This document shows positions 2,659 through 61,751 of a stretch of 64,000 nt of DNA, in pieces. The stretch covers positions 8,367,460-8,431,459 of the forward strand of contig NC_087083.1 in the NCBI RefSeq assembly GCF_026151205.1. Direction: 5' to 3'. Position 1 is the stretch's first letter; each line of letters starts with the position of its first letter. This DNA comes from Bolinopsis microptera (taxonomy: Eukaryota > Ctenophora > Tentaculata > Lobata > Bolinopsidae). The translations under genes were made by a program, and so were the position numbers. Below the pieces are notes generated by a model. The model made no database searches. It was not told the DNA's origin and was given only the letters and a program-made list of their open reading frames with translations.

Positions 2659-2745
2659 GATTACACAGGATTACACAGGATTACACAGGATTAAAATTAA
2701 ATTATAGATCCATTATCATGGACTGTCATAATTGTTTACAGAAAT
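2659..2745 (+). repeat. Dispersed repeat with three GGATTACACA units
   Basis: Three consecutive 10-bp units (GGATTACACA) lead into an AT-rich stretch containing ATAGATCCATTATCATGGA. The same arrangement, with only a few substitutions, occurs at 28598-28685, over 25 kb away. Both copies share the tandem units and the flank, so this is one dispersed repeat family rather than two independent microsatellites. Confidence 0.75.
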
Positions 2746-4176
2746 TAATGAAAACAATCACCTTTGCTTGAAGTCAGGGCCAGGGTTATCCTTAAATCTT
2801 AATTATGACTAATTCGCGAGGTTCTCACCAAATTGATAGTAAAATTGTTTAAGTTTCGTGCATTTGAATTACGCTGACGCATATCTTCGGTGAAGCTATT
2901 TCGCTCTTCGGAGCAGCGAAGGAAATAAGTGCACACACAGTTGACAGCATAGGAGCGCCTTTCTTGAAATTGAATATACTGTGGGGTGTTTGGTTGAATA
3001 TCAAGTGAGCGGTGGCAGTGAATATGGAGGCTCTGGTGATTTTGAGGAATTACAGTTGAGTAAGGAGACAAAATTTCGGCTGCCAGACTTTGGGGTCGGA
3101 GTGATATGATCCACCATATACGTCATCAAGTAATTAACATGCAAGCAGAACATTTTTTTTTAGAACATTTGAATATAATTTGAAACATTACAGAAATGTT
3201 GTACAAATCGCTCAAACACACACACTAGGTCTTAATTCGGTTAAGTTCCAATCGAAAATTAAATGATTCTCAAAATGTAGGTGTCTAATGAAAATGTGAT
3301 ACTGTGTGACAAAGTTAAGAATGTCTTAGTGAAAGAGAGTTAACTGTCGATGAATTCATGTGAGGTACTATCGAAGTTCAAAATGTTGTGATGGGTGACA
3401 TGATAATGACTGATAAGAAAAAGTTTTCATGTCAACTGTGCCATAATCCAGAACAGTGTGATGACTGTCAAAGTGTCGACCACTAGGTACTTGGACGAAC
3501 AAGTGTACCCGAGGTGTTCTGAGATGGCATGCTCGGGAACACGAACGCGCGCTAGTCGCTAGGGCAAAAAAAGAAATGCACAGTAAGCAAGTTAAAAAAA
3601 AGGAAAATTAAAATGCCGCTTGGGCCAAATGCAGTGAGCCAGTAAGGTGCGGTCGTAGGAGCAAGTGGCTCTGAAGACTAAAACTGATGAGACTGATGAG
3701 GCTGATACTGAAAATGAAGACTGAAAGGGGGGAAGCAAAGGAGAAGGAAAGGATGCAGGGGGACAAGAAAAAAGAAACAAGAGTGGAGACAAACCACCTG
3801 CTGAGGTCTGGCTAAAATCAGAATGCAGTGAGCGGCCCGTGTAACAAAATCGTCCGTGGCAGTCTACCCCGTACGCAGACTACGGTCCAAGATTTCAGGC
3901 GCCAGAATACACCTTTTGGTGCAGAGCTGGTCACGACCAGGGTCCTCTCGGATACCCCGTCTCGGAGGTCGGGCCAATGGAGCGATCCATTGCTGTACTA
4001 ACAACCATTGTAACCCTATCACTCTGAAGGCCCCACAGTTCCTACATGGACGCACGGCCGGAAGCCCATGTAGGGACGGAAAGTCCCAAGAGTCGCTCAT
4101 AGCATCCGTCACAGATCCAAAGCAGAAGGAGAAGGAAAGAAAGAACGAGAAAAGCAGAAGAGAGCTGGCTGAAGGA

Positions 4177-26411: not shown

Positions 26412-27714
26412 CAGAGGCACATATTAGGTGCGATGGGTGCGGGATCGCACAATTTACCGTTTTCCGCACATTTCCGCACATTTTGTAATTTTCTGCATAT
26501 TTCCGCATAATCTAGCATTTTCTGCGTAATTTCGCATAATTTTGAAATTTTCGCGTTAAGATTTTCGAGTGTAAAAACCAAAATATGTTAAAAGTCGGGC
26601 CCTTTTAGGGCCGTGACTCAGGCCCTTTTAGGACCGTGACTCAGGCCCTTTCGGGACCGTGACCCACTGACCCAGGCCCTTTTGGAACTCATACCTAGGC
26701 CACGTGACCCAGTTACCACGTGACCCAGGCCCTTTCGGGACCCTGACCCAGGCCCTTTCGGGACCGTGACCCAGGCCCTTTCGGGACCCTGACCCAGGCC
26801 CTTTCGGGACCGTGACCCAGGCCCTTTTGGAACTCATACCTAGGCCACGTGACCCAGTTACCACGTGACCCAGGCCCTTTCGGGACCCTGACCCAGGCCC
26901 TTTCGGGACTGTGACCCAGGCCCTTTCGGGACCGTGACCCAGGCCCTTTCGGGACCGTGACCCAGGCCCTTTCGGGACCGTTACCCAGGCCCTTTCGGGA
27001 CCGTGACCCAGGCCGTTATGGAACTCATGCCTAGGCCACGTGACCCGGTTACCACGTGACCCAGGCCCTTTCGGGACCATGACCCAGGCCCTTTCGGGAC
27101 CGTTACCCAGGCCCTTTCGGGACCGTGACCCAGGCCCTTTCGGGACCGTGACCCAGGCCGTTATGGAACCCTCGTCGTTACCGTACTTCGATCATACCTG
27201 CAGCCCTTTTTATCGGGTAATGAGCTCTATTCTTTGTAGCGTTGGCTTTATAGTGGGCTTAATGGATCTTGGATCAAATGGTTTACAAGTACTGACGATC
27301 AATGCCAACAAGCGTGTCACATATTTGCGATCACACATGGGATCTGATCGACTCTATCAAGAGGCGTCTTCAAATAACTGTCTCCTGATCTCTACCAGAT
27401 CAGGTCACTGTTCTCAGATAACTGAATCTCAATATAGGTTCAATCATGGTCTTAGTAAAGAACTACACCCTCAGTAACACATAAACAGACCTATTTTTGA
27501 TAAGAGCGGCGGTTATACAACTTAGAATTTACAAAGTTCTTCAGAAAATGCAAAAGAAAACCGCACAATTCCCGCACAAATTTCGAAAAAATCGTCGCAC
27601 ATTTGCCTCATAATTGGTAAAAATTTACCGCACCTTACCGCACATTTTACCTTTATAGTCGGGTGCGGTACCGCATAATTTCGATTTTTTTACCGCACCT
27701 AATATGTGCCTCTG
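26412..27714. mobile_element. Non-autonomous hAT-type element, 1303 bp, with 8-bp TSD
   Basis: The ends are exact 21-bp inverted repeats beginning CAGAGGCACATATTAGG. They are flanked on both sides by the same 8 bases, TTAGAGCT (26404-26411 and 27715-27722). An 8-bp target duplication plus a CAG(A/G)G terminus is the hAT superfamily signature. No transposase is encoded. The interior has CCGCACATTTCCGCA-type subterminal repeats in mirrored orientation and a central 23-bp minisatellite. Confidence 0.85.
26605..27165. repeat. 23-bp minisatellite with higher-order structure
   Basis: About 18 units of GACCGTGACCCAGGCCCTTT plus CGG vary mainly as GTGACC, CTGACC or GTTACC. They are interrupted four times by a longer variant containing GGAACTCATACCTAGGCCACG, which shows a higher-order repeat. 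The unit is GC-rich against AT-rich surroundings. A 150-codon ORF across it on the minus strand is just the translated repeat. The array lies wholly inside the hAT-type element. Confidence 0.9.
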
Positions 27715-42828: not shown

Positions 42829-43595
42829 ACTATAATACCTCCGCTACTGAGTGCTAAGCGCGAAGTAGCGGAGGTATTGTATTTTATAATACATTCCGGT
42901 TCCAATTGGGAGGGGTGTAATGTGATACGTGCGCATGATACCTAATAATAATAATAATAAGTTTTAATACTTTCAACACTACTATATAACAAATAATTTG
43001 AGTGCTATGTAACCTGGCAGTAACGTTGTAAAGGACTTTGAGGGGGTCTGTAGTCCCCCCGCATAGTATGTTTGTGTTTCACTGATTTGTAAACTGAAGA
43101 CGTAAATATAGAACGCCAGTGTTATTTGTTTTGAAACTTGCCGCCAGCTAGTCTGAGTCTATGCTAATAATACCTTCGCTTCCCTTGCGGGATATATCTG
43201 CAAATTATCAGCTCTCGGTGTCCCCGAGTTTTAGTGGATATAATTCCCCGAAGGTATTATAATATAATAATGCCTTCGGCTCTTCGGTTTCCGCTTGATA
43301 ATTCCCGACAGCTTGCTGGAGGGAATTTGCGGCCCGAAGAACCGGAGGTATTATGTATTATAATAATTTCCGGTTCCGATTAGGAAGGGGTGTAATCCGA
43401 TACGTGCGCATGATACCATATAGTGTCTAATATATAGAACGCCAGTGTTATTTGTTTTACAACTTGCCGCCAGCCAGTCTGAGGTCTATGCTGATAATAC
43501 TTTCGCTTCCCTTGCGGGACATATCGGCAAATTATCAGCTCTCAGTGTCCGAGACTTTTAGTGGATATAATTCCCGGAAGGTATTATAAATAAGA
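42829..43595. repeat. Cluster of foldback MITEs with ATAATACCTYCG ends
   Basis: Several mirror-ended units lie in a row. 42836-42880 has arms AATACCTCCGCTACT. 43176-43262 has arms ATAATACCTTCG. 43266-43356 has arms ATAATGCCTTCGG versus CCGGAGGTATTAT. A second copy of the middle unit lies at about 43490-43590. Between them, two segments containing GATACGTGCGCATGATACC (about 42890 and 43365) and two starting GAACGCCAGTGTTATTTG (about 43105 and 43435) show the whole block was duplicated. The cluster ends 20 bases before a TATA box. Confidence 0.75.
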
Positions 43596-45975: not shown

Positions 45976-45979
45976 CTCA

Positions 45980-46344
45980 TATCACACAGTATGACGTCAT
46001 CATATCACACAGTATGACGTCATCATATCACACAGTATGACGTCATCATATCACACAGTATGACGTCATCATATCACACAGTATGACGTCATCATATCAC
46101 ACAGTATGACGTCATCATATCACACAGTATGACGTCATCATATCACACAGTATGACGTCATCATATCACACAGTATGACGTCATCATATCACACAGTATG
46201 ACGTCATCATATCACACAGTATGACGTCATCATATAACACAGTATGACGTCATCATATCACACAGTATGACGTCATCATAGCACACAGTATGACGTCATC
46301 ATATAACACAGTATGACGTCATCATATCACACAGTATGACGTCA
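45980..46344 (+). promoter_or_regulatory. Tandem array of 16 perfect CREs running into the phosphorylase start codon
   Basis: A 23-bp unit (ATGACGTCATCATATCACAC plus AGT) is repeated with exact period from 45991, the 16th core being at 46336-46344. Every copy has an intact TGACGTCA. The only differences seen are in the spacer (TATAAC in the units starting 46221 and 46290, TAGC in the one at 46267). TGACGTCA is the palindromic cAMP-response element bound by CREB/ATF bZIP factors. The last core is also the first three codons of glycogen phosphorylase. If transcribed, each unit ATG opens a short ORF (MTSSYHTV) whose TGA overlaps the next unit's ATG. Confidence 0.9.
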
Positions 46345-49300
46345 GAGGAAAGCGATTTCTTGCGGAGGAAACAGATCTCTTTAAGGGGACTTCCTGAGAT
46401 TGACAGTGTAAAGGAAGTCATCAATAACTTCAACAGGTTCTCCTTTAATATTACACTTAGTTGCTAAACTTATTTGCTTAATTAACTTGATTTTTACCAT
46501 AGTTGATTAATCGATTTGATAATTAATTTATCAATTAACCAGGCACTTGCACTACACATGCGCAAAAGACCGCAATGTTGCGACCAACAAGGATTTCTAC
46601 TTTGCTCTGGCAAACACTATCATGGACAAACTGATTGGAAAATGGATCAGAACTCAACAAAGTAAACAAACAATTAGTGTATCAATTATATCAACCATAT
46701 TTATTATGTTTTATTTAACAAGATTTGTTACAAAGCTTTTTCGAGGCTTCTTCAAAAAATACCCTTTTTTCACATTAAACAAGAAGCCGCTTCTTGTTAA
46801 ATGTGAAAAAATGGTATTTTTTTAAAAGGATGTCTTGAATTGAACATTATTATATGATATAAGTTATCTCACGTGATATTACGTTACTTGTCATTTAGTC
46901 ACATGATGGTATGACGTCACGTGGTATGACGTCACGTGTAACTGTGTAATGTGGTATATAATGACGTCACACTGCAGGTTACCACAAACAGAGTGTAAAG
47001 AGAGTGTATTATCTCTCTCTGGAATTCATGATGGGGCGGACTCTTAGTAACACTATGATAAATCTCATGCTCGAGGTATAGTATGTATAAATAATATAGT
47101 ACATACATGATTTTCTTTTCTTCTCATGCTCGAGGTATTTTACTATAGTAATACTACTAATTATATGTAATATGTAAAATTGTCATTTACTTTTTATTCT
47201 TTTAGTGAATATTCTTGTGGTGGGTCCTTTTAAAAGGACTACACAACTATTAGTGGTATGTAATGCCACACCGTGACGTCACACCACGTGACGTGACTTC
47301 ATACCACGTGACACACTCACTAACGTGACGTCACGCTGCAGGGTGCGTGTGACGAGGCGCTGTACCAGCTAGGACTTGACATTGAGGAGTTGGAGAGCGA
47401 GGAACCTGATGCTGGTCTTGGTAATGGTGGTCTAGGCCGGCTAGCTGGTTAGTGCTTACTTTATAAGCTGGACAAATACTTTATTAATTAGATATGTATT
47501 TTATTTGAGGCACACAAGTTTAGGAATTAGGTTTCTACCTGGTTCTGAGAGTTTAACCTCTCAGAACCATTTGGGATCAGATATCTGAGTTAAAGGTTTC
47601 ACTATACATTATAATACACTGTACATGATAATACTAAATTTGTTGTAACTCATCCCCAATATTTTGTTTCCTTTCTGCCATATAACTTGCCCTCTCGTCA
47701 CTCAATCCTCCGCAATGAACATATTTGATGATACAGGTCAATTTATTTAACAATTCTCACCTGGAAAAACATCCGGGCCATTATCAGTTGAGTATACTCG
47801 ATAATACAAAGAAGCCGTGTCTTCTGAGCTAAATCTGAACCGGTGTAACTTATGAAGGATGTTGACTGATATGTTGTCATCGCAAGTGGCCTGATTACAT
47901 TGAACATGTATTGTTGACGGCAAGCTCCCCTTTTTGAAAGTCCACTCCAGCTCTCCAGAGGTCATTTCTGTGTAACCATTCTGCTTGATCGTTCCTTGGT
48001 ACTTGATTGTGAAATCCAAAATTGCGTTGCCAGCCCTGGCCCTTGGGGTGTAATTTATTTCAATTCTCTAAATGTTTTCTCCGTTACACTTAGTTGAACA
48101 GAACTCAATTACAAGGTGTCTAACACCAGGAGAGTTCAGTTGCAGTTCAGTCTTCACTTCAACAGTACTCTTAGCTGAATTGAGACTAATAATAGAGCTG
48201 TTATTGACAGGTTTCCAGCCACTTCCACCACCTCTAGGTTCAGAGAGCACCAGCATTGCTAGTAGCACGAGCAGGAGAATCTTCATGTTCTATTCCAGAA
48301 ACTAACAAACAAAATATAGCACGAAACTTATCGCGACCGTCTTATTACCAGCCACTAGGAGACGAAATAATAGTCCCAGCTGCCTGTAGTTTAATCTTAA
48401 TCAGAATACCCTGTGCTATTTCTAAATTACAGTTTAATAAGCTCTCCGCAGCTGTCTTTCTATCCTTGTTTAAGTCAGTGCGTAAATAATTGTACTGATT
48501 CTCGGTCCTCCTAATTACCATTCCTAGTTTGCAGATTTTAATGAGTTTCATCTTAAAAAGTCAGGTTGTTAACCACCTACAGCTGCTCCACCAACATTAG
48601 CTGCGAGAATTTAGCGTCACGACCGAAACAAGGAATTAAAACACTGATATTCCTTGGGGTAAATCAAAGCTTATAAAATGAATTTCTACTAGAATCTTAG
48701 AATAGATGTAATAAACCTTCCGAAATTCAAGTTTCTTTTTGTTCATGTCATGTGGTCTGATCAGGATCGCTGACGTACCATAGAATTTACAATGTAGTAA
48801 CTACAATACAATATTAGTAGTTTTGGTGTTCTTTAAATACTTGTCACCTATGCAATGTTTGAGACAATAACCAGAAACGATTTTCTAAGATGATCTTAAA
48901 GGAACAGCTGTGGGTCGATTACGACTAGAATGTTTGAGAATTTGGAGCATAGTAAAGGTTGTAAAATGGTGATTAGAACGAAAATGACCAAGAATTAGTA
49001 GTTTTTAAGCAGTAAGGACTCAGGATCGCGATCGGTAAGTACGCACTAGGTCCGAAAATTGGCACACCTGTTCAGTGTTCCTGCTAAGAACCAATGAAAC
49101 TTCAGCTCAGGTTTGAGCAGTCTGATTGGGGGTAGAGCAGATGGGATAAGTTCGTTGAAGAGATGAAGATTTCCTGATGGCTTTAAAAAAGAGATCGCAT
49201 TGTGCTTCGTGCTATATTTTGTTTGTTAGTTTCTGGAATAGAACATGAAGATTCTCCTGCTCGTGCTACTAGCAATGCTGGTGCTCTCTGAACCTAGAGG

Positions 49301-52300
49301 TGGTGGAAGTGGCTGGAAACCTGTCAATAACAGCTCTATTATTAGTCTCAATTCAGCTAAGAGTACTGTTGAAGTGAAGACTGAACTGCAACTGAACTCT
49401 CCTGGTGTTAGACACCTCGTGATTGAGTTCTGTTCAACTGAGTGTAACGAAGAAAATATTCAGACAATTGAAATAAATTACACCCCAAGGGCTGGCAACG
49501 CAATTTTGGATTTCACAATCAAGCACCAAGGAACGCGAACGATCAAGGTGAATGGTTATACAGAAATGACCTCTGGAGAGCTGGTGTGGACTTTAAAAAA
49601 GGGGATCTTGCTGTCAACAATACATGTTCAATGTAATCAGGCCACTTGCGATGACAACATATCAGTCAAAAACCTTTGACAAGATAGACCGGTTCAGATT
49701 TGGCTCAGAAGACACGGCTTCTTTGTACTATCGAGTATATTCAACCAATAAAGGTCCAGATGTTTTTCCAGGTTGGAATTAATCACGTAAATGTCTCATG
49801 TTTTTTTCCCTTTTTGTCTCAATTTTTTATTAAGAGGGTTTGGGTGTGAAGAGGGAAAGTTGTGCAATGTGCGGGTGAGATTTGAACAGATGTGGAAAAC
49901 GTAAAGTGGGAGGAATCCTGTGATCAGTATAATAAGAAACCTGTAACTCAGATATCTAATATATAATGATATGTAATATATTATAATATTCACATATTAT
50001 TTTACGAACGAAGGAGTTAAAAAAAAGGTAGCCATTTGAAGGTATTGTGACGTTTTGGGATTTATTTTAATAATGTGACCTTAGTAAACAGCTGAATTTT
50101 GAACATTTCTTAACTTTGCCTCCTTGAAAATCGTTAGTTGAATCATTGAAATTAGTTTTATTACTTTAGATAATTGAGTTAAATTAAAAATTCTGATCCA
50201 GTAAATCGTGTCCAATATTATTTTTTGTAATCTACTCACCTTTATCAGCGTGTTTCCTGGACTCGCTGGCTACGCTCGGTTACCCTGCGTATGGGTACGG
50301 TATACGGTACGAACATGGGCTCTTCAACCAAGCCATCGTCAACTGTAACCAGGTAAGTTACGAGCTGTGACGTCATGTCACGTGGTGTGACGTCATATCA
50401 TGTAGTGTGACGTCATATCACGTGATGTAAATCATTAGTTAACTACGTTTAATGATAGGATAAGATTAGTAACCATATATTAATAACCAGTAAAAAGTAA
50501 TTTATCATTTAGAGATTCAGTAATTACTAACAAGTTAATTACCATGATATGTATTATAGTAATTATAATATTAATAATTAGTTAGTAATTAGTAACATCC
50601 CCCTCCCCAGATAGAGAAACCAGACAGTTGGTTAACGTACGGTAATTAGTAACAATTAGTAATAAGTAACTTATTGACACCCCCTCCCCAGATAGAGAAA
50701 CCAGACAGTTGGTTAACGTACGGTAACCCCTGGGAGAAGGCTAGACCTGAATACACAATACCTGTTAAGTTCTACGGGCACACTCAGAGAACGGGGGATC
50801 AAGTGGAATGGGTAATTATCTAATAATTTACTAATAATTGATTAATAATTAATGAATAATTAATTAAAAATAATTAGTAATTAGTTATTATTGATTGATC
50901 AAAAGGGATCCGATGTTAATTGTTTACTGTTTTAGAGTAAGATCGTACGTGGTGTTTAGCCTGCCTTTCTGTTTAACTGTCTATTTTCACGATATACGAT
51001 ACTAGCACTACCATCAAAAATACCCCCTAAACCAAAAACAAACACAGCAGTTAAACAGTTAGACTACCATTTTTCCAACATTGTCTCCAACATGTCTCAT
51101 AGATAATGTTGCCTATTGTACTGTTCTGTCTGATCCGCTACACGACCACTAGCCACCTTAAATACCTCTCTGATAGTGATACACTGGACCACTTAGGACG
51201 GCTTGGTTTCCTTTCTAAATACGTACAAGATGTCACGTTTGAAGAGAGAAGTATGGATGATTTGAAGTCGAAGAAGCACGCTAAACGGAGACCCGGTGAA
51301 GACGAGGATATAACGGAGACCTGGTTGAGACCTGGTGGTGTTCACACCAGACGGAGACCTGGTAGCTTGCACACACGACCTGGTGGGGTGGTTGTGTTTC
51401 CTAGAAGTCTCATACTTCAGGAGTTGGAGAATAGCAGGACTGTTCTCAACTACTTGGATGATTTTGGGTACCTTGATGGTTACGCCAGTCTAAAATCTAA
51501 AGTAAAAGATGAGGGATCACATCAGGATGATCTGACTATGATGAGTACTGAAGATCTTGAAGGAGCTTTGACGCTGTTCCAGTCCATGAATTCTTTGTAT
51601 CCGACAGGAAATGTTGATGAAGAAGTCCTAGCACAGATGAAAATCCCACGGTGTGGGGTTCCAGACATTGATCCCTACGATCCAGGAGCACTTGCTCAAC
51701 TCGGACTGGAAACAATACAGGGTACCAACGGGCTGAAAGGCGGATGGAAGACCTCTCTGTTTAATATTAAACCGGAAGACTTTGTTGCATTCAACAAAAG
51801 ATACGAGATTTCTGATGAAAAATGGCTGAAAAACAAGCTGTCTTTTCACATAGAGAGCATCAGTGACACGCTAGACAAACACACTCAAAATGAGATAGTC
51901 CAGGCTTTTGAAGTGTGGACTCAAAGCGTAGAACTCTTTCTCTACGAGGTAAAAGACAAAAAGATAGCAGATATAAGGATACAGTTCCTGGAAAAGGACC
52001 ATGGTGATAAATATCCATTTGACGGGCCTATGGGGGTCCTTGCACATGCTTTCTACCCTCGTAGTGGAGAAATCCACTTCGACAATGACGAGGAATTCAC
52101 CCGTTTATCCGACAGAGGGGTTAACCTAAGATACACAGCAAGCCACGAGTTCGGGCATACTTTGGGGTTAAAACATTCCGTCAAGAAAGGCTCCCTAATG
52201 TCTCCTTATCATCCTGGCTACACAAAAGAAATTCGCCTACAACACGATGATTTGGAGGGGATCTCTAAGATATTCAAGCTTGGAAAAGGTGCCGTGTTTA

Positions 52301-55300
52301 CTGCTGAGACATTTGAGGCGATGGAGTACCAAAGGTTTCAACAGAATGAATTTGTTGGCTCGCAAGATAATAAACCTCTTGCTATGAACTCGCCATGTAT
52401 TGGAGTAATAGATGCAGTAATCCAACACCCTCGCAAGAAAACTCTCTTTTTCTTCACCAAAGACATATACTACAAGGTAGAAAGAGATAAACTAGGTGAG
52501 ATAGGTGTGGTTGAAGGTTACCCAAAGTACATATCGGAAGGGTGGGATGGGTTGGAAAACAACATTGACGCTGCTTACGTTAACGCTACTATATCTGCAG
52601 CGTTCTTCTTTAAAGGGGAACAGTACTGGAAGTATGATTTTATCCAGGAGAAAATGTACCCTGGTTTCCCGAAAGCGACCATGCCGTTAGTCTCAAAACA
52701 TCTTAAAGCAACCATGATGTCCGGTAACACCGCTTACTTCTTCTCCGGAGATAAAATACTGAAATACGAAAGTTCAACAAACACGGTACAAACATTCACT
52801 GATAAGCACGTGGAATCTGACGCAGCATTTCCCCTCTTTGTGAAGGGCTACTTTGGAACCACGTACGGGTCCACTTACTCCATCTACCGAGTAAAGAACA
52901 TGGAAGCAGTCCGTGTGTATCACGGCCGACCCCTTTCCTGGGACTATGGGTTACCCATGTGTGTGGATCATCTCATGCACAATCGAGTTCTCAATCCTAA
53001 GATGAAACCGTTCTGTAACGCATATGCTTTGCTGGCTTTTACTGATTACAATTTGGATATCCCGACCGAGTGCTATGGTTTGGTGAGGCCATTCCCAGCG
53101 TTCCCGCTGGAAGCGATACATGATCTGGAGATACAGGAAGAGATACAGGGCCTCGAGACTATTGAACTTTGATAATGCGGTGAAGTTGAGTGCAGGATTT
53201 GGACTGATGTGAAAATATATGTTGTTATTTAAAGATTTAACCTGATCTTTGTTTTGAAGTTGACATAGATAACTTTAATAAAGTTTATGTATTTTAATTT
53301 GTTAGTTGAAACAATAAAATCGTAAATTCTTTTTCATTAGTTCTTCGATTAGTATTGAGCATAATTCTGCGAACAAGCCGTCTCTATTTACCATTCACCC
53401 GCAAGTAAACATAAATATCACAATGTTATAGTAATATTACTTTATAATATAAGGCATAATTTTCATGTAATGTGCGAGATCTCCCCGCTCTCAGCCAGTA
53501 ACCACGTACACATAAAGTTAATATTAATACACGTTAATGATACTAGGGGGGGGGGGGGGCAACGCCCCAAAAAGCCTTTTTGGGGCCTTTTGGGGCCTTT
53601 TGACCCTGACCACTATTTGATAGTGTTTATGGACCATAATCGCCATGTAAATACACTCAAATAAACATAAAAGTACTGTGCAAGTAGTCAGATAATATCA
53701 TTAAAGCACTTAGCATATATCAAACTTGATGAAATTGAAGTTAATTCTAGGGCCCCAAAAGGCCCTATACATACTGAAATCCAAAAAGGGCCCTAGAAAT
53801 CGGGGCTTTTTGGGGCCTTTTGGGGCCTTGTGACCCTGACCACTATTTGATAGTGTTTATGGACCATAATCTCCATGTAAATACACTCAAATAAACATAA
53901 AAGTACTGTGCAAGTAGTCAGATAATATCATTAAAGCACTTATATTATTATTAGCATATATCAAACTTGATGAAATTGAAGTTAATTCTAGGGCCCCAAA
54001 AGGCCCTACACATATCGAAAATCCAAAAAGGGCCCTAGAAATCGGGGCCTTTTGGGGCGTTGCCCCCCCCCCCCCCCCCCCATACTACTTTCAATTCTCT
54101 CGTCCCATGTCTCGCCTAATGTCTCAATGTCTATTTATAGCATTATTTAGTCGAGTTTAACATCAGAACACCGTTCAACCACTCGCTTTTTCTTTATTCA
54201 TTGGGAATTGGGAATTTTCATTCTAATAATAATCAAAGTTAATTATATGATTGAATTAAGTAATGCACTTACCGGAACTGACAGAGCTGTTCTAGTGTTC
54301 TAAATACCAAATATTACAATTAAATATAATTTGCATAATTAGCATATTTATTACTAATTAGCATATTAATTACTAACACACAGGTGGACTACACGACAGT
54401 AATAGCGATGCCCTACGATACCCCTATACCTGGTTACAAGACAAACACAGTTAACACTCTCAGGCTGTGGTCTGCTAAATCTCCTAAAGACTTCGATCTT
54501 TCTTACTGTGAGTAGTGCTATCTGGTTGGTTGGTTTACGTCACGTGACTAGAATACTGATCTCTGGTTGGTTGGTTTACGTCACGTGACGAGAATACTGA
54601 TCTCTGATTGGTTGGTTTACGTCACGTGACGAGAATACTGATCTCTGATTGGTTGGTTTACGTCACGTGACTAGAATACTGATCTCTGGTTGGTTAGTTA
54701 GCCTAGAAACTGTTTTTTCTTCTTGAGAGCTTGAGGGGTCGCATTCTCGCAGCAGGCAAGAATGTAACTACGAATTGTAGCTTTGTAGGGCAAGAACGTT
54801 CCAGTTCTTGGCAGAAGTTATCTATTCCAGAAGTTCTTTGCACTTTCCAGAAGTTGTTTGTTCTAGAACTTATTATGATAATAAATTATAAGTGTATGTA
54901 ATCCAGTTTAAATATTATAAGTGTACAATTAGTACATTAGAAGCTTCCATCTCACAATCAAGAGATTATCAGGTACCCTAGATAATAAATTCCAGAAACC
55001 TTTTTCTTCCCATCCCGGAAAGTTCCATCTCGGCAAATCCGAGCTGGATTGTTCTGGACTAACTAATAATACTTATTGCAACTAGCTGTGTTATGTGTAT
55101 TATGTAACTGATTTGTTATTTATTACACGAGAATCTCCTCGTCGTATTTTATCCTTATCGACTCAATAATACACAGATTAAGCAGTATACATGTAACTTT
55201 AATAACAGTTAAAGTAAGAAAGTAAGCTTCTTAGCGTTCTCTGATTGGTTAGTTTGTGTCACGTGACTAAAATACAGCTCTCTGATTGGTTGGTTACAAT

Positions 55301-58300
55301 AGTTCTCCTCTTCGCGTCCAAGAGTAGTCATTCTCTTGTATTGAATGTCAAGTTTATCACTTTATTGTGTCTAACATTCATAACTAATTTCACTGATTTG
55401 TAACTAATTTATATCTAATTTCACTAATCAATAACTAATTACAGTTAACCACGGTAACTACATAGACGCCGTCCTGGACCGGAACATCGCTGAGAATATA
55501 AGTAGAGTACTTTATCCTAACGACAACTTCTTCGAGGGTACGGTTCTCCTCTTAGTTTTTAAACATTTTATTTAATATATTATTGTGAACTAGAACTTTA
55601 TCTAAAAGAACACCATTCATTATAGTTCATTATAGTTCATTAAATCACTACGAATCAAATTACATTGGTTCGGTAGCTGCAGGATGATAATATAATTTGA
55701 TGATTTTGAAGCCAACATATATTTTCCTGGCAAATTGCTATATCAAAAAAATAAGATATCAATGACAACTATAATATGATAACGGAATTAATAATCAATT
55801 AATTATCAGGTAATTATCAATTAATCACCTTGATCATTATCTGATAAACAAAGATTCACCTAATTGAAATTCTAGCCAATGCAATGATTGCAAGTATATA
55901 AGCAATTAATTACTAATTAATTACTAATAATTGCAGGTAAGGAGTTGAGACTGAAGCAGGAGTATTTCATGGTCGCAGCTACTCTAGTTGACATTATCAG
56001 AAGATTTAAAGTTAACAAAGCTTCTATTCCCGAGTCAAAAGAAGAACTTTACTTGGATTTTTCTGAGAAGGTGATTATTAAAGATAAGAAATTTACTTTA
56101 AATTTAAATATCGTAATATATAAGGTAAAGATTTCAGAAAAAAAGTATGTTAAATATGTTAATTATATTAATTATGTAACATGTGACAGGTAGCGATACA
56201 GTTGAATGACACTCATCCCTCGCTGGCTGTACCTGAGCTTATGAGAATACTTATAGACGAGGAGGGACTCAGCTGGGACTCGGTTAGTTTATTTTATATC
56301 ACGTGTCGACAACGTGTCAACAACGTGTCAACAACGTGTCAACAACATGCAAACAACGTGTCAACAACGTGTCAAAACGTTTATTATCGAAAATGAAATT
56401 TAGCAGGAAACAATCCTCTAACTTGAGAAACAAGAGTTGACAAAAAAAACTGAAACTTTTATCATTACACATGATCTGTCCCAGGCTTGGAAAGTATGTA
56501 AAGGAACGTTCGCCTACACAAACCACACGATCCTACCAGAAGCGCTGGAACGGTGGCCAGTTACAATGCTGGATCACGTGCTACCTCGTCATTTGGAGAT
56601 TATCTACCTTATCAACCATTATCATCTGGAGGTATAGTTGTTATTGGTGGTTTATTATTCAGTAGTTGGAGGTTAATTATACATTAATTATTGATACGTA
56701 TGCTGGTATGCATAGTGTTAGCCAGTTATTATCATTTTATGTAATTGTACATAATATTATTACATTATGTTCAAATTCAAATGGACAAGTGGAACTGGTC
56801 GCGCTTTAAATTTTTATATTTTCCTTATCATTAAACTACTATTACATATTATTATTGAAGTATTGTTCGTTGCAGGAAGTGAGAGCTAAATTCCCTGGCG
56901 ATAATGAGAGGATTAGTAGAATGTCAATTGTTGAAGAAAATGGTGATTAATTAATTTGTTTATCTATTTAAGTCAAATAACATATGCCCCGCTTACTAGT
57001 TTAGCTCTTTCTAGTCCCCTGCTACACGGCATGTAAACAGGGATTGGCTAGTTAGAGGCGGTCCGTGTAGGCCTTACACTGTGCTTTCAGCAATACTCAT
57101 AAACATAAAGGTGACGAAATGGATCAAAATGAAATTGATCAAAATGAAATGGATGAAGATTTACCATAATTTGATAACTTACCTAACATGCCCTGGCTTT
57201 GGAGTAGGAAAGATTTGCACTTATTTATTAACAAATAAATTAATATGTCAAGAAACTAATCAGTGACCGATTAACTAATTATCCAATTAACCTCAGGAGA
57301 AAAGAGGATAAACATGGCTTACTTGTCGGTGGTTAGCTGTCACACTGTTAACGGGGTGGCGGCGATCCACAGTGGGCTCCTCGTTACATCTCTGTGAGTA
57401 TACTGGACTGTATTGTGGACCAAATAGTAGATCAAATAGTAGATCAAATAGTGGACCAAATAGTGGACCAAATAACGGACCGAATGATATAAAAAATTGT
57501 GGACCAAATATTGGATTAAATATTGGATTAAATATTGGACCAAATGAGTTTAGTTAAGTTCATACCAGCTCTATTCACTAGCACAAACACGCTTCACAGA
57601 CACTCTCCTCCTTATCTGCTCTTGCTTTAATTTGTCAATGAATTGTTGAAACATCGTCATCAGTCACAACAACGACATTTGGTAACATTTAGTCTAACGG
57701 AAATGTTATGTTCTTATGAATCAGCAGACCGTAAAAAGCAGTCAAGAAGAGAATAGGTGCTTTCTGAATTAGCTAATAACCTAAGAATGTTTCCTTGATA
57801 TGGATAGTTTTCGTTAATTAATTGTAAAGACTAAACACTTTTCGGGCCCAGAATCTTGTCCCGATAAGAGGTTATTTTAGTTAGTTGTTAGAAAAGATCA
57901 GTATTTAATCTGTGTATTAATCCTCCGGTGTATTCGACATAACTCATCCTGAAAAGGAGAATATGAAGTTTTCATTACTAATTACTAAAGAGATTCAATC
58001 AGAGTTGATAATGTTTTGAATAAACTACGTAGCTAATCCATTCAAATTTTAAGAATTAACATTCTTAAAATTAAATTCCCCCGATTTTAATCTCCTAACC
58101 CCACCAGATTTAAAGATTTCTACGAGCTGACACCTGGAAAGTTCCAGAACAAAACGAACGGAATCACACCGAGGAGATGGCTAGTCCAGTGTAACCCCTC
58201 TCTTTCTCATCTAATTACAGAGAAAATAGGTACAGAGTGTGTGTACTTGGGTTACTAATTCCTGAACACATGAACACATGAACATGTATCACTTTCGTTA

Positions 58301-61300
58301 CTTTCTTCATACATACACGTATGTAGTTTATTATATGTGATACTGGCTTTTAGTGATTTCCATTTCTGTTCTGTTCTGGCTCTGATTTATCGCATAACTT
58401 GTCAGGTGACGCCTGGCCGACCAATTTATATCAGCTGGAAAAACTCAAGGAATTTGTTACAGACAAAACATTCTTACAAGAGGTTAGCTTTATTTACAAT
58501 TTCTGAATTGACATTGGTGTGTGTTTGAGTGTGATCCTCCTCGAGTACTCGAAAGTTTGATTCGTCACCAGTATTCTACATTTTCTTATATATTTTTGGA
58601 CTTGCTTTTGTTGACAAATTTGCCGCTATCAACTTTCGAGAAGATTCTCGAGGATTCTCAGGGATTCTACATTGAGAATTTAAACGGGATCAATAGAAAT
58701 TTACCCAAGAAAAATAATTTAAACTATTTGAGAATTGAAAGTAGTTGATATAAACACGTTTTACTTCAAGGTATTCAAGACAAAACAAGGAAACAAGAGG
58801 AGGCTAGCCCAATATGTAGCTGACAACTATGGCATAACTCTGAATACAGGGAGCATGTTTGATATCCAGGTAAAAACCACCGTATTATTGTTAAATATGT
58901 AGCTAACAACTATGGGATAACTCTGAATACAGGGAGCATGTTTGATATCCAGGTAAAAACCACCGTATTATTGTTAAATATGTAGCTGACAACTATGGGA
59001 TAACTCTGAATACAGGGAGCATGTTTGATATCCAGGTAAAAACCACCGTATTATTGTTAAATATGTAGCTAACAACTATGGGATAACTCTGAATACAGGG
59101 AGCATGTTTGATATCCAGGTAAAAACCACCGTATTATTGTTAAATATGTAGCTGACAACTATGGGATAACTCTGAATACAGGGAGCATGTTTGATATCCA
59201 GGTAAAAACCACCGTATTATTGTTAAATATGTAGCTAACAACTATGGGATAACTCTGAATACAGGGAGCATGTTTGATATCCAGGTAAAAACCACCGTAT
59301 TATTGTTAAATATGTAGCTGACAACTATGGGATAACTCTGAATACAGGAAGCATGTTTGATATCCAGGTAAAAACCACCGTATTATTGTTAATTCGTTAC
59401 GTGATATGACCTGATGTTATGTCCTATAATATCCCAGCTGCTACCAGCTACATTGCCAGCCGGCATGATTATCCTCGAACACGGATTTTGAGTAGTGTCT
59501 TGACGGCGGGCGCGAACGCCATATCATTTCTGTGCAGAACACGCCGCGCAAAACGCGCATTATATAGTCCGATCTGCGCGCATGTCATAATAATCATACC
59601 GAAGTACGTGAGTACGCTGGTACGTGACAATAAGAATTAGAGTCCCATGATTCGGGATTCAAAGGTTGTGAACTATATGAATCTTGTTCCAAAAGGAGGC
59701 TTAAACGCTTGTTACGGAAGACGATGCACGAGAACTAGCGATCAACACATCACAATTCACCAATCTGTATTATACTATTCTAGTCACGTGATAACACCCA
59801 ATCAATCTCCTTGCAGGTAAAGAGAATCCACGAGTACAAGCGTCAAACCCTCAACCTACTCCACGTCATTACCCTCTACAACCGGATTAAGAGTAATCCT
59901 AACTTGGAGTTCGTTCCTCGAACTATTTTCTTCGGCGGCAAGGTTAGCATAAAATACTTCTACGTTATTTAACTTTTTCATTGTCACGCGTCAACCACCA
60001 GAAACCACATCTTTTTATCGGCTATTACTAAACATCCAGATAATCATCAATCAGTCAAAAATGAACCCCAACTATTTCAGGCAGCTCCAGGATACCAAAC
60101 AGCTAAACAGATAGTATCACTGATCTGCCACCTTGCAAATGTGGTTAACAATGATCCAATCATCGGAGACAAGCTCAAAGTAGTGTTCCTCGCTAACTAC
60201 AGGGTACGTTATAACAATGCTAACAATTTTATTACAATGTTATAACATTTGAGGTGGTGGTTTGATTGACTAACCCTACAATCCAACAAAATGAACGATG
60301 AATTGTTTCTCAGCGATAAGATAAGTAACATACATAAATAAAGCTCGTGGAAATTATTTCTATAACCTAATTCTAATATTCCTTAGTGCTCTCTAGCAGA
60401 GATTATAATGCCAGCAGCCGATCTTTCGGAGCAGACTAGTTTGGCTGGGACAGAAGCGTCCGGAACAGGAAACATGAAGTTCATGGTGAGTAGCATCTCG
60501 CTTCTTTGTGAGAGTTGTTTCTATGCTATGATATAAGGTCGTCCAAACGTGGCCTCGAATGAATCCAAATCGGAGACACTTTTTCCTATGCTCTACAGAT
60601 AATCCTAACCAAGCGTATTTTCGCCCTTTAGTTGAACGGGGCGCTGACTATAGGAACTCTGGACGGGGCTAATGTTGAGATGGCAGAGGAGATGGGAGAA
60701 GATAATATATTTATCTTTGGTATGAAGGTGGACGAGGTGCAACAACTCTGGGATCAAGGGTAGGTCTCTAATTTAAAGATGCTAGAACTTCCGTCGCGAA
60801 AGCTGGTTCATCGTGGTTTTAGGGTCGGGTAAATATTCCACAGCCAAACAATTTGTTTGCAAGCTGCAAAGGTAGAGTGAGCACATACTCACAGTACGTA
60901 AGATACAATACCACCAGAATCTAAAAGCAACAACCCCCGTACAGATATGAAACACGACGTTACCTAGCCCGTCTGCCGGAGCTGCAGCTGGCACTGTCCC
61001 AAATAAGTACAGGGTACTTTAACCCTGCTGAACCGCACAAGTTCAGGGACTTTGCGGAACAGCTTATCTCCAATGACAGGTACTTTTATTAGATAATGAC
61101 AGGTACTTTTATTAGATAATGACAGGTACTTTATTAGATAATGACAGGTACTTTATTAGATAGTGGTGGGAGAATTGATATCACCAAAAAGGGTATCAAT
61201 CCTTTTAATTTTCTGCCGTATATTTATTGAAGAGCTCTACAAACAAATTACGTACTTTGTCGGTAGCTAATTGGTTAACAATAACTAATTAAGTGATTAA

Positions 61301-61751
61301 AACTAATTAAATACAGGTTCTGTGTGATAGCGGACTACGAGAGCTACCTGAAAGTCCAGGAGGAAGTTAGTGAGCTCTACATGGACTGGATCAAGTGGAC
61401 TGAGAAATGTCTTTACAACATTGCTAGTGCGGGAAAGTTCTCCAGCGATAGAACCATCAAGTCAGTTGCTACGTTAATTAATTAATAATTGATTAATTGG
61501 TTTTTGATTTAGTTGTTTTTAAAATTTGTTTTATTGCTTTTGTTTACTGTTGACCAGATGATAACAGTTAACTTGTTCACCACCGTCGCTAGGTATTTTA
61601 AGTACATTAATCATAATTAATAACTAATTAATAACTAATTGTAACATAATTAATAACTAATTAAATAATTAATTGTAACTTCAGGCAGTATGCTGATGAG
61701 ATATGGGACATAAAGCCAGTAGAAGTAGACCTCAACCCTCCTAAAGAATAG
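46336..61751 (+). CDS. PYG: Glycogen phosphorylase, 23 exons, 840 aa
   Basis: The enzyme cleaves glycogen with phosphate to give glucose-1-phosphate, in the cytosol. Exons: 46336-46436, 46543-46661, 46978-47075, 47342-47447, 50249-50352, 50692-50811, 54384-54507, 55445-55537, 55937-56070, 56190-56282, 56485-56631, 56876-56942, 57297-57393, 58108-58229, 58406-58482, 58771-58869, 59817-59942, 60081-60203, 60387-60485, 60632-60759, 60945-61079, 61317-61460, 61685-61751. All junctions are GT-AG and keep phase, giving 2523 coding bases (human muscle form: 842 aa). Ser15 lies in [10 protein letters not shown], the phosphorylase kinase site. AMP-site Trp68 and both Gln72/Gln73 are present, but the usual Tyr76 is His. 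The PLP lysine is Lys681 in [11 protein letters not shown]. Start: an in-frame TGA lies 45 bases upstream with no other ATG between. Introns 4 and 6 contain other genes. CREs and E-boxes cluster upstream and in introns. Confidence 0.97.
46754..46822. repeat. Hairpin in phosphorylase intron 2
   Basis: Two 33-base arms (46754-46786 and 46790-46822) are reverse complements at about 31 of 33 positions, with a 3-base loop CCG. The arms include TTTTTTCACATT and AACAAGAAG. The tight loop makes a stable stem in the pre-mRNA between exons 2 and 3. It could also be a tiny MITE. Confidence 0.75.
46912..46969 (+). promoter_or_regulatory. Three CREs, two fused to E-boxes, in intron 2
   Basis: TGACGTCA occurs at 46912-46919, 46927-46934 and 46962-46969. 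The first two continue as TGACGTCACGTG, so a CACGTG E-box overlaps the CRE. The third lies 8 bases before the exon 3 junction dinucleotide, within TGACGTCACACTGCAG. Two more perfect CREs follow in intron 3. Confidence 0.6.
47274..47333 (+). promoter_or_regulatory. Two CREs and E-box-like motifs in intron 3
   Basis: TGACGTCA lies at 47274-47281 and 47326-47333, with CACGTGAC twice between them. The second is again directly before the acceptor, in TGACGTCACGCTGCAG, almost the same string as at the end of intron 2. Confidence 0.6.
47747..48286 (-). pseudogene. Small secreted-protein gene in intron 4, one in-frame stop
   Basis: Read on the minus strand, the frame starts [17 protein letters not shown], a signal peptide. 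It continues [15 protein letters not shown] and has Cys pairs in [11 protein letters not shown] and [10 protein letters not shown], ending VFPGENC. A single TAG at 48068-48070 interrupts 179 otherwise open codons. The sister copy has CAG (Gln) there, so one C-to-T change explains the stop. The other copy has a different lesion. The gene is antisense to the host phosphorylase gene and shares about 35 bases of 5' flank with its sister. Family unknown. Confidence 0.65.
49245..49782 (+). pseudogene. Inverted sister of the intron-4 secreted-protein gene, frameshifted
   Basis: The first 144 codons (49245-49679) match the minus-strand copy closely, including an identical signal peptide. The codon that is TAG in the sister is CAG here. 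After DDNISV a one-base insertion near 49668 shifts the frame and gives a stop at 49677-49679. The lost C-terminus is still visible in the next frame ([11 protein letters not shown], then VFPG) and would end at 49782. The two copies form an inverted repeat with about 0.95 kb between start codons. The protein looks like a small secreted beta-rich protein with two Cys pairs. Function is not recognised. Confidence 0.65.
50368..50415 (+). promoter_or_regulatory. Three CREs at 20-bp spacing in intron 5
   Basis: TGACGTCA lies at 50368-50375, 50388-50395 and 50408-50415, followed by variants of ATGTCACGTG and ATATCACGTG. The context TGACGTCATATCAC resembles the upstream array unit, suggesting common origin. 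Confidence 0.6.
50600..50727 (+). repeat. Duplicated 5' end of exon 6 with decoy splice sites
   Basis: The acceptor and first 35 bases of exon 6 (50692-50726) are preceded 81 bases upstream by an exact copy (50611-50645) with its own CCCCTCCCCAG acceptor. The copy runs into TACGGTAATT, which supplies a possible donor. That makes a 31-base pseudo-exon. Its inclusion would shift the phosphorylase frame. Confidence 0.8.
51106..53172 (+). CDS. Matrix metalloproteinase with haemopexin domain (688 aa), intronless, nested in phosphorylase intron 6
   Basis: This secreted zinc endopeptidase cleaves extracellular matrix. The start [16 protein letters not shown] is a weak signal peptide. The prodomain includes [14 protein letters not shown] (about 114-126) and the cysteine switch PRCGVPD (181-187). 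The catalytic domain follows: [11 protein letters not shown] (347-357) binds zinc with three His, Glu348 is the base, and SLMSPY gives the Met-turn (Met365). A haemopexin-type C-terminus runs from PCIGVID (about 434) and repeats YYKV, YWKYD and ILKYE blades. Odd feature: a basic insertion near 56-95 ([25 protein letters not shown]) separates two YLxxLGFL-like prodomain pieces. One uninterrupted exon suggests a retrocopied origin. Polyadenylation signals follow at 53277 and 53313. Confidence 0.93.
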   Translation: MLPIVLFCLIRYTTTSHLKYLSDSDTLDHLGRLGFLSKYVQDVTFEERSMDDLKSKKHAKRRPGEDEDITETWLRPGGVHTRRRPGSLHTRPGGVVVFPRSLILQELENSRTVLNYLDDFGYLDGYASLKSKVKDEGSHQDDLTMMSTEDLEGALTLFQSMNSLYPTGNVDEEVLAQMKIPRCGVPDIDPYDPGALAQLGLETIQGTNGLKGGWKTSLFNIKPEDFVAFNKRYEISDEKWLKNKLSFHIESISDTLDKHTQNEIVQAFEVWTQSVELFLYEVKDKKIADIRIQFLEKDHGDKYPFDGPMGVLAHAFYPRSGEIHFDNDEEFTRLSDRGVNLRYTASHEFGHTLGLKHSVKKGSLMSPYHPGYTKEIRLQHDDLEGISKIFKLGKGAVFTAETFEAMEYQRFQQNEFVGSQDNKPLAMNSPCIGVIDAVIQHPRKKTLFFFTKDIYYKVERDKLGEIGVVEGYPKYISEGWDGLENNIDAAYVNATISAAFFFKGEQYWKYDFIQEKMYPGFPKATMPLVSKHLKATMMSGNTAYFFSGDKILKYESSTNTVQTFTDKHVESDAAFPLFVKGYFGTTYGSTYSIYRVKNMEAVRVYHGRPLSWDYGLPMCVDHLMHNRVLNPKMKPFCNAYALLAFTDYNLDIPTECYGLVRPFPAFPLEAIHDLEIQEEIQGLETIEL
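53277..53318 (+). terminator. Polyadenylation signals of the nested metalloproteinase gene
   Basis: AATAAA occurs at 53277-53282 and 53313-53318, about 105 and 140 bases past the MMP stop. They lie on the sense strand of phosphorylase intron 6, so premature polyadenylation of the host transcript must be avoided if they are used. Confidence 0.55.
53546..54081. mobile_element. Foldback element with G/C-run ends and 6-bp TSD in intron 6
   Basis: The left end is a 14-G run then CAACGCCCCAAAAAG. The right end is CTTTTTGGGGC-type sequence, GGGGCGTTGC and a run of about 19 C. Both sides are flanked by ATACTA (53540-53545 and 54082-54087). The interior is a direct duplication of about 235 bases (about 53580-53815 and 53816-54050), each half starting GGGGCCTTTTG and including CTGACCACTATTTGATAG. 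It resembles the 39637 foldback in having homopolymer caps but differs in target site and arm length. Confidence 0.75.
54515..54690 (+). promoter_or_regulatory. Four-copy 41-bp array of inverted CCAAT plus E-box in intron 7
   Basis: GTCACGTGAC occurs at 54539, 54580, 54621 and 54662, exactly 41 bases apart. Each is preceded by GGTTGGTTTAC. In units 3 and 4 this is preceded by CTGATTGG, the NF-Y (inverted CCAAT) consensus, and in the others by the variant CTGGTTGG. TTACGTCA also makes a CRE half-site overlapping the E-box. GTCACGTGAC is the preferred site of USF/TFE-type bHLH-ZIP factors. A fifth unit is at 55248-55267 with CTGATTGGTTAG. Confidence 0.65.
55241..55295 (+). promoter_or_regulatory. 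Fifth inverted-CCAAT/E-box unit in intron 7
   Basis: CTGATTGGTT, then GTCACGTGAC at 55258-55267, followed by another CTGATTGGTTGG at about 55282. It is a separated relative of the 41-bp array about 0.6 kb upstream. Confidence 0.55.
58811..59391 (+). repeat. Seven-copy 83-bp tandem repeat made from the 3' half of exon 16 and its donor
   Basis: Units start at 58811, 58894, 58977, 59060, 59143, 59226 and 59309, exactly 83 bases apart. The first is the real exon 16 end plus the start of intron 16. Each further unit repeats the 57 coding bases ending TTTGATATCCAG and the donor GTAAAAACC, but no acceptor. Units alternate GCTGACAAC and GCTAACAAC, so growth was probably by duplicating a two-unit block. 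The true donor is the first one, since exon 17 begins with [10 protein letters not shown] in phase after DIQ. Confidence 0.92.

Follow-up and report, generated by a model that had tools for sequence, protein, structure and literature searches.

A 23-bp array of cAMP-response elements running into the start codon of a ctenophore glycogen phosphorylase gene is probably a young minisatellite

Ctenophores are known to trans-splice a leader onto their mRNAs. The Hormiphora leader was found on 56% of Iso-Seq reads, a figure reported as a lower bound, and for Mnemiopsis a leader is reported to occur 491 times in the genome (PMC8527503). In animals that trans-splice, the DNA at a start codon need not be a promoter, and a row of perfect transcription-factor sites can arise simply as a by-product of repeats. 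In fission yeast, the ade6-M26 recombination hotspot requires a site resembling the cAMP-response element (CRE) together with a bZIP pair (PMC9775316). Ctenophore CREB proteins with a KID have been published, and CREB has been reported missing in Pleurobrachia (PMC4736632). Here we describe a stretch of 64,000 nucleotides of Bolinopsis microptera DNA (the window, to which all positions refer unless stated otherwise), in which a tandem array of CREs is fused to the start of a glycogen phosphorylase gene, and we compare this array with CRE repeats in the rest of the genome.

Tandem Repeats Finder reported the array as 16.0 copies at a period of 23 with 98% matches (Table 1), starting at 45977 and not, as a preliminary description of this DNA had it, at 45980. 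By slicing the array unit by unit, we found that TCATATCACACAGTATGACGTCA is perfect in 13 of the 16 units. Units 12, 14 and 15 carry a single substitution each, all of them in the spacer, and the TGACGTCA core is intact in 16/16 units. The preliminary description had spoken of 16 perfect CREs at a 23-bp step, with no core mutated and spacer changes in three units, and was accurate in all these respects. Each unit also includes the heptamer ATGACGT. With its homogeneous units arranged head to tail, 16 × 23 bp, the array falls within the definition of a minisatellite (10–100 bp); because 13 of 16 units are identical in the one assembly from which the array is known, it appears to be young. The window as a whole contains 24 copies of TGACGTCA, compared with 0.73 expected from 100 shuffles (largest shuffle, 3), of which 16 lie in the array and eight in introns of the phosphorylase gene.

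Table 1. Position of the array and of associated features in the window.
Feature	Position	Strand	Description
Spliced-leader sequence copy	42961..43002	+	GTTTTAATAC + TTTCAACACTACTATATAACAAATAATTTGAG, ~3 kb upstream of array
Minisatellite	45977..46344	+	unit TCATATCACACAGTATGACGTCA, one intact TGACGTCA each, x16
Last unit, candidate trans-splice acceptor	46322..46344	+	CACACAG/T then ATG (46336); acceptor use inferred
Glycogen phosphorylase gene	46336..61751	+	23 modelled coding exons, 840 aa
CRE cluster, intron 2	46907..46969	+	15-bp repeat x2.1, plus CRE 46962-46969, which stops 8 nt short of exon 3
CRE/E-box repeat x2, intron 3	47272..47333	+	plus CRE 47326-47333, which stops 8 nt short of exon 4
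CRE/E-box minisatellite, intron 5	50366..50428	+	20 bp x3.2, begins 13 nt past donor

The phosphorylase frame starts at the ATG of the last array unit, where nine bases, ATGACGTCA, code for Met-Thr-Ser (codons 2 and 3 are ACG and TCA), just as the preliminary description had read the last core. This start codon is credible, because residue 6 of the protein pairs with residue 6 of the human muscle enzyme in an alignment, and the frame cannot run further upstream, because an in-frame TGA lies at 46291, within the array. Query residues 6–838 align with residues 6–838 of the human muscle form and, in one continuous alignment, with residues 9–841 of the human brain form. In these alignments the serine of RRKQIS (residue 15 counting Met) is in register with the regulatory serine of animal phosphorylases, a position which we take to have that regulatory role. 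The enzyme side of the earlier cAMP reading, which had invoked activation of phosphorylase itself, would accordingly be served by a regulatory-site serine that appears to be kept. A genome search with PF00343 gave 15 matches, all at this locus, so that this is the only phosphorylase gene found by a search that can miss weak matches; a divergent second copy is possible.

The phosphorylase gene contains further repeats. An 83-bp unit present seven times (58811–59392) includes the end of exon 16 and its donor, the exon being continued only by the first copy; a 23-bp unit present four times (61072–61162) takes in the end of exon 21 together with the donor; and the exon 6 acceptor lies, with the first part of that exon, in a tandem duplicate (50612–50811). 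Ten of 19 intronic tandem arrays were found within 25 nt of an exon edge, compared with 2.9 expected (P = 2e-5), in a test that covered fully intronic arrays only, left out the two donor-overlapping arrays, and was carried out on the same gene in which the pattern had been noticed. Intron 6 harbours a nested, single-ORF matrix metalloproteinase-like gene (51103–53172; Peptidase_M10, hemopexin). In intron 4, a small protein whose N-terminus is signal-like is encoded in inverted duplicate (48068–48289 and 49242–49679); its plus-strand copy gave no Pfam match.

A search for the spliced leader at up to three mismatches returned 1,706 matches genome-wide and none for the reversed control. The leader ends in AATTTGAG and resembles the published Hormiphora leader (PMC8527503). 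When the Hormiphora leader itself was used (25 bases, up to three mismatches), there were no matches in the genome and three for its reversed control; the window's own leader variant did match. We examined 43 leader copies, i.e. three plus the next 40 matches listed, all on contig C1. Downstream of AATTTGAG these copies fall into 24 sequence families, as would be expected of copies derived from leader–mRNA junctions, and the first ATG is found 0–9 nt past the leader in 34 of the 43 copies and in 17 of the 24 families, compared with 16% at random positions (P = 3e-9). Two glutamate-receptor ORFs were also compared with the PDB: the nearest entry was Mnemiopsis ML032222a for one of them and kainate receptors for the other. 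On this genomic evidence, the host is a ctenophore that trans-splices a leader, and the DNA adjoining an ATG therefore need not be promoter. Several of the 43 copies, among which are L020, L021 and L041-L080, share recurring downstream families and look as if they were retrocopied from the 5′ ends of trans-spliced mRNAs. The copy that precedes the array (Table 1) is probably a retrocopy of a leader–mRNA junction. Its identity as a leader-RNA gene is doubtful, because leader copies run into differing downstream sequences; the fold downstream of it is ordinary (z −0.94), and Rfam gave no family at gathering score in the same downstream sequence.

Every array unit reads (C/A)ACACAG/T-ATG, which amounts to a candidate acceptor followed by a start codon. 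In 15 of 16 units the AG within (C/A)ACACAG is the only one; unit 14 has a second. Joining at the last unit would yield leader-T-ATG-ACG-TCA, in which a single base precedes the ATG, as in seven of the 43 leader copies. Scored with a matrix built on the 22 introns of the gene, the last-unit acceptor reaches 0.63, and 7/22 true acceptors score lower. It is outscored by five AGs that precede the array (45691, 45501, 45709, 45770 and 45732), and a 5′ UTR exon or another acceptor is therefore possible. The fit of acceptor to ATG is weak evidence when taken alone, because an AG ends 0–9 nt upstream of 44% of random ATGs. The 15 upstream ATGs of the array open 12 frames reading MTSSYHTV, two reading MTSSYNTV and one reading MTSS, and the stop overlaps the next ATG in 14 of the 15. 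Given these short upstream ORFs, good translation would be achieved most simply if the array were removed or if transcription began downstream of it.

The genome searched comprises 264.65 Mb on 232 contigs, and it contains 17,804 copies of TGACGTCA, compared with 2,709–3,590 expected from Markov models of order 1–3 trained on a 140-kb sample from 14 preset places. Triplets of TGACGTCA with spacers of 5–35 nt gave 3,401 overlapping matches versus 299 for the reversed word, and triplets of the E-box palindrome TCACGTGA gave 3,631 versus 295. The comparison word TCAGCTGA gave 151 triplets, all of them, among the matches listed, in one C4 stretch; AGTCGACT gave a single triplet match, and CGACGTCG none (12 for its reversal, GCTGCAGC). 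Counted by eye among the matches listed, the first 12.5 Mb of C1 alone contain at least 20 separate CRE clusters. We fetched 19 CRE loci, namely these C1 clusters and one C4 array, and recovered tandem units at 18 of them, with periods of 13–42 bp and many differing spacers; these loci are not all independent, because L022 and L024 share a common unit on opposite strands and the units of L029 and L030 are nearly alike. The phosphorylase array, too, has the features of this class, i.e. an intact TGACGTCA with a spacer that is free to differ between loci. Among 118 tandem repeats (period 9–100) in the sample and the window, the palindromic 8-mers with the largest excess were TGACGTCA (four arrays) and TCACGTGA (three), although all four TGACGTCA arrays lie in the window, which was itself chosen for them. 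The CRE part of the class is uneven, because the random 14-piece sample contained TGACGTCA just four times, never in an array, versus 26 occurrences of TCACGTGA.

Pfam was searched with 10 ORFs, taken from 10 loci among the 19 fetched. Four gave matches: a hAT dimerisation region in L022, LplA in L036, zinc fingers just below cut-off in L025 and low-complexity matches in L033; the other six (L027, L028, L029, L030, L034 and L039) gave none. In L036, three CREs at positions 1043–1095 of that locus are read through in a probable lipoyltransferase-like coding exon (...SRDVTPQSRDVISAKHHDVI...), the ORF scoring 30.3 bits for LplA-B at a cut-off of 27. Its match in the PDB was weak (whole-sequence E 1.9e-5, best stretch 0.038). 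Long repeats were also seen apart from CRE loci. A long minisatellite of 23-bp units (CGTGACCCAGGCCCTTTCGGGAC), each with two CpGs, occupies 26598–27159 of the window; the loop-anchor motif of Mnemiopsis is described as GC-rich with two CpGs (PMC12221973). A 46-bp unit is present 147 times at 75–6905 of L013, and 73% of L015 is tandem repeat.

What recurs in the genome is the core rather than this particular unit. At an exact 23-bp step we counted 97 CRE pairs, 15 of them in the phosphorylase array, versus 55 for the control word, a small excess. With up to three mismatches, the 23-bp unit matched 38 times: 16 times in the phosphorylase array, 12 times in one C4 array (20-bp step) and as 10 dispersed singles. 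The genome search found no exact 23-mer beyond the phosphorylase locus, and the idea of a common dispersed satellite was rejected, exact copies being present at one locus only. The preliminary description had named the frequency of the unit elsewhere in the genome as a finding that could overturn its promoter reading; the answer is divided, in that the exact 23-mer is unique to the locus and CRE-core clusters are common as a class. Three of the dispersed matches read TCATATCACGTGGTATGACGTCA, which is close to the intron 5 repeat of the phosphorylase gene, and by this likeness the array unit could be derived from a dispersed composite of CRE and E-box. In the literature listed on CRE repeats and on ctenophore promoters and tandem repeats, mostly outside subscription journals, we found no report of a class of CRE-core minisatellites. 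We find the CRE/E-box-core repeats that recur in the genome more interesting than the phosphorylase array itself.

We consider it probable that the array is a young CRE-core minisatellite. We think it equally probable that it lies in an outron that would be removed by trans-splicing at the last unit. A CRE-palindrome sequence at the 5′ edge of phosphorylase exon 1 would recently have been amplified to give the array, and similar cores (TGACGTCA or TCACGTGA) would have been amplified at other places in this genome. The pre-mRNA would be trans-spliced at the last CACACAG to yield an mRNA beginning leader-T-ATG, with the array as discarded outron. In RNA the array would be neutral or mildly costly, the possible cost arising because each upstream unit, if retained, would bring in an ATG and with it a short upstream ORF. 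As DNA it could bind bZIP dimers; a promoter or enhancer effect would be compatible with this origin and would not be needed to explain the array. Activity of the CREs at the DNA level and a response to cAMP are, as judged from the motifs, possible.

According to the reading put forward earlier, the array would be a strong cAMP-responsive promoter or enhancer: PKA would phosphorylate CREB, and CREB/ATF dimers on the CREs would raise phosphorylase transcription alongside activation of the enzyme. We regard this as unlikely, even though its ingredients are present. One ORF in the genome encodes both a pKID (LSRRPSYRKIL) and bZIP_1, each above the Pfam cut-off, in line with the KID-bearing CREBs published for ctenophores (PMC4736632), and a second, weaker pKID match (25.9 bits) lies on C13. 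On the CREB side, then, the proposal is supported, in that such a protein is encoded and its binding to the array would be possible in principle. Array and organism show two of the things that such a promoter calls for, a consensus CRE in 16/16 units at the start of the gene and a CREB with KID and bZIP; a real CRE promoter would likewise be expected to have many intact CREs in a row just ahead of its ORF, and more CRE and E-box sites lie in the phosphorylase introns. However, CRE clusters are found genome-wide, one of them inside the probable coding exon of L036, and with trans-splicing the transcription start may lie elsewhere.

The cAMP-promoter reading had also drawn on core conservation as a hint of selection. 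In interior units of the phosphorylase array we counted 0/120 core changes versus 3/225 spacer changes, a difference that is not significant (P = 0.55), and the hint is not supported here. Another CRE array, L025, showed fewer changes in the core than in the spacer (4/192 versus 18/240, P = 0.014), which is in favour of a promoter role; L040 did not differ (2/136 versus 1/204, P = 0.57). A pooled test over the arrays favoured conserved cores (P = 0.0007), but we discounted this value because intact cores had been the basis for choosing the arrays and because units at the edges were counted wrongly, the phosphorylase array having been charged with six core changes where the true number is zero. 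The evidence for selection on cores is thus mixed across arrays and gives the earlier hint no support for the phosphorylase array. Collectively, the perfect CREs, the encoded CREB and the serine at the regulatory position are in support of the preliminary description; core selection finds no support in this array, and the trans-spliced leader had been missed.

By analogy with ade6-M26 (ATGACGT, Atf1-Pcr1), CRE and CACGTG sites might, when occupied by bZIP or bHLH factors, be hotspots of breakage or recombination that seed minisatellites genome-wide, an idea that we consider doubtful. The two related palindromes are indeed the outliers in clustering, with differing spacers, and ATGACGT occurs within the unit. 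Yet the clustering controls were six other words only, and in the review that describes M26 the plain CRE TGACGTCA in ade6 is reported to be neither bound by Atf1-Pcr1 nor able to promote recombination (PMC9775316). The M26 parallel is suggestive only.

The units could also be tandem trans-splice acceptors, an improbable arrangement in which the leader would join any unit, joins further upstream would give chains of short upstream ORFs, and copy number would tune translation. The acceptor–ATG sequence is indeed repeated in every unit, exon 7 of the gene uses an acceptor ending in aacacacag, an ATG near the leader is usual in this animal's leader copies, and the chain of stops overlapping the next ATG is nearly complete. 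The acceptor score, however, is middling, and the core recurs elsewhere with differing spacers, which argues against cassette function as what the class shares. A composite of all these ideas, in which bZIP/bHLH palindromes (TGACGTCA, TCACGTGA) would seed minisatellites genome-wide and the phosphorylase array would fuse CREB sites with acceptor-ATG cassettes, its length tuning both transcription and translation, strikes us as very improbable.

A young CRE-core minisatellite, discarded with the outron, is therefore the reading that we prefer. If the link between CRE/E-box cores and minisatellites were true genome-wide, it would offer a direct test of whether factor binding shapes the origin of tandem repeats in an early-branching animal. 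Among known systems, CRE-driven promoters of metabolic genes share with this locus perfect TGACGTCA sites upstream of a cAMP-linked metabolic gene and an encoded CREB; unlike them, the array has near-identical spacers from tandem duplication and belongs to a repeat class that extends beyond promoters. The ade6-M26 hotspot of fission yeast shares the CRE-like heptamer ATGACGT, found here in each unit, and differs in that the plain CRE in ade6 is reported as a non-hotspot (PMC9775316). The leader trans-splicing described for ctenophores is matched by the leader end AATTTGAG, by hundreds of genomic copies and by an ATG near the leader in those copies, whereas the candidate acceptor of the phosphorylase gene is present in 16 tandem copies (PMC8527503). 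Finally, minisatellites of the Jeffreys type resemble the present class in having short tandem units at several loci with a common core and the rest of the unit differing; here, by contrast, a palindrome recognised by transcription factors (TGACGTCA or TCACGTGA) forms the core, the animal is a ctenophore, and one of the arrays carries a start codon.
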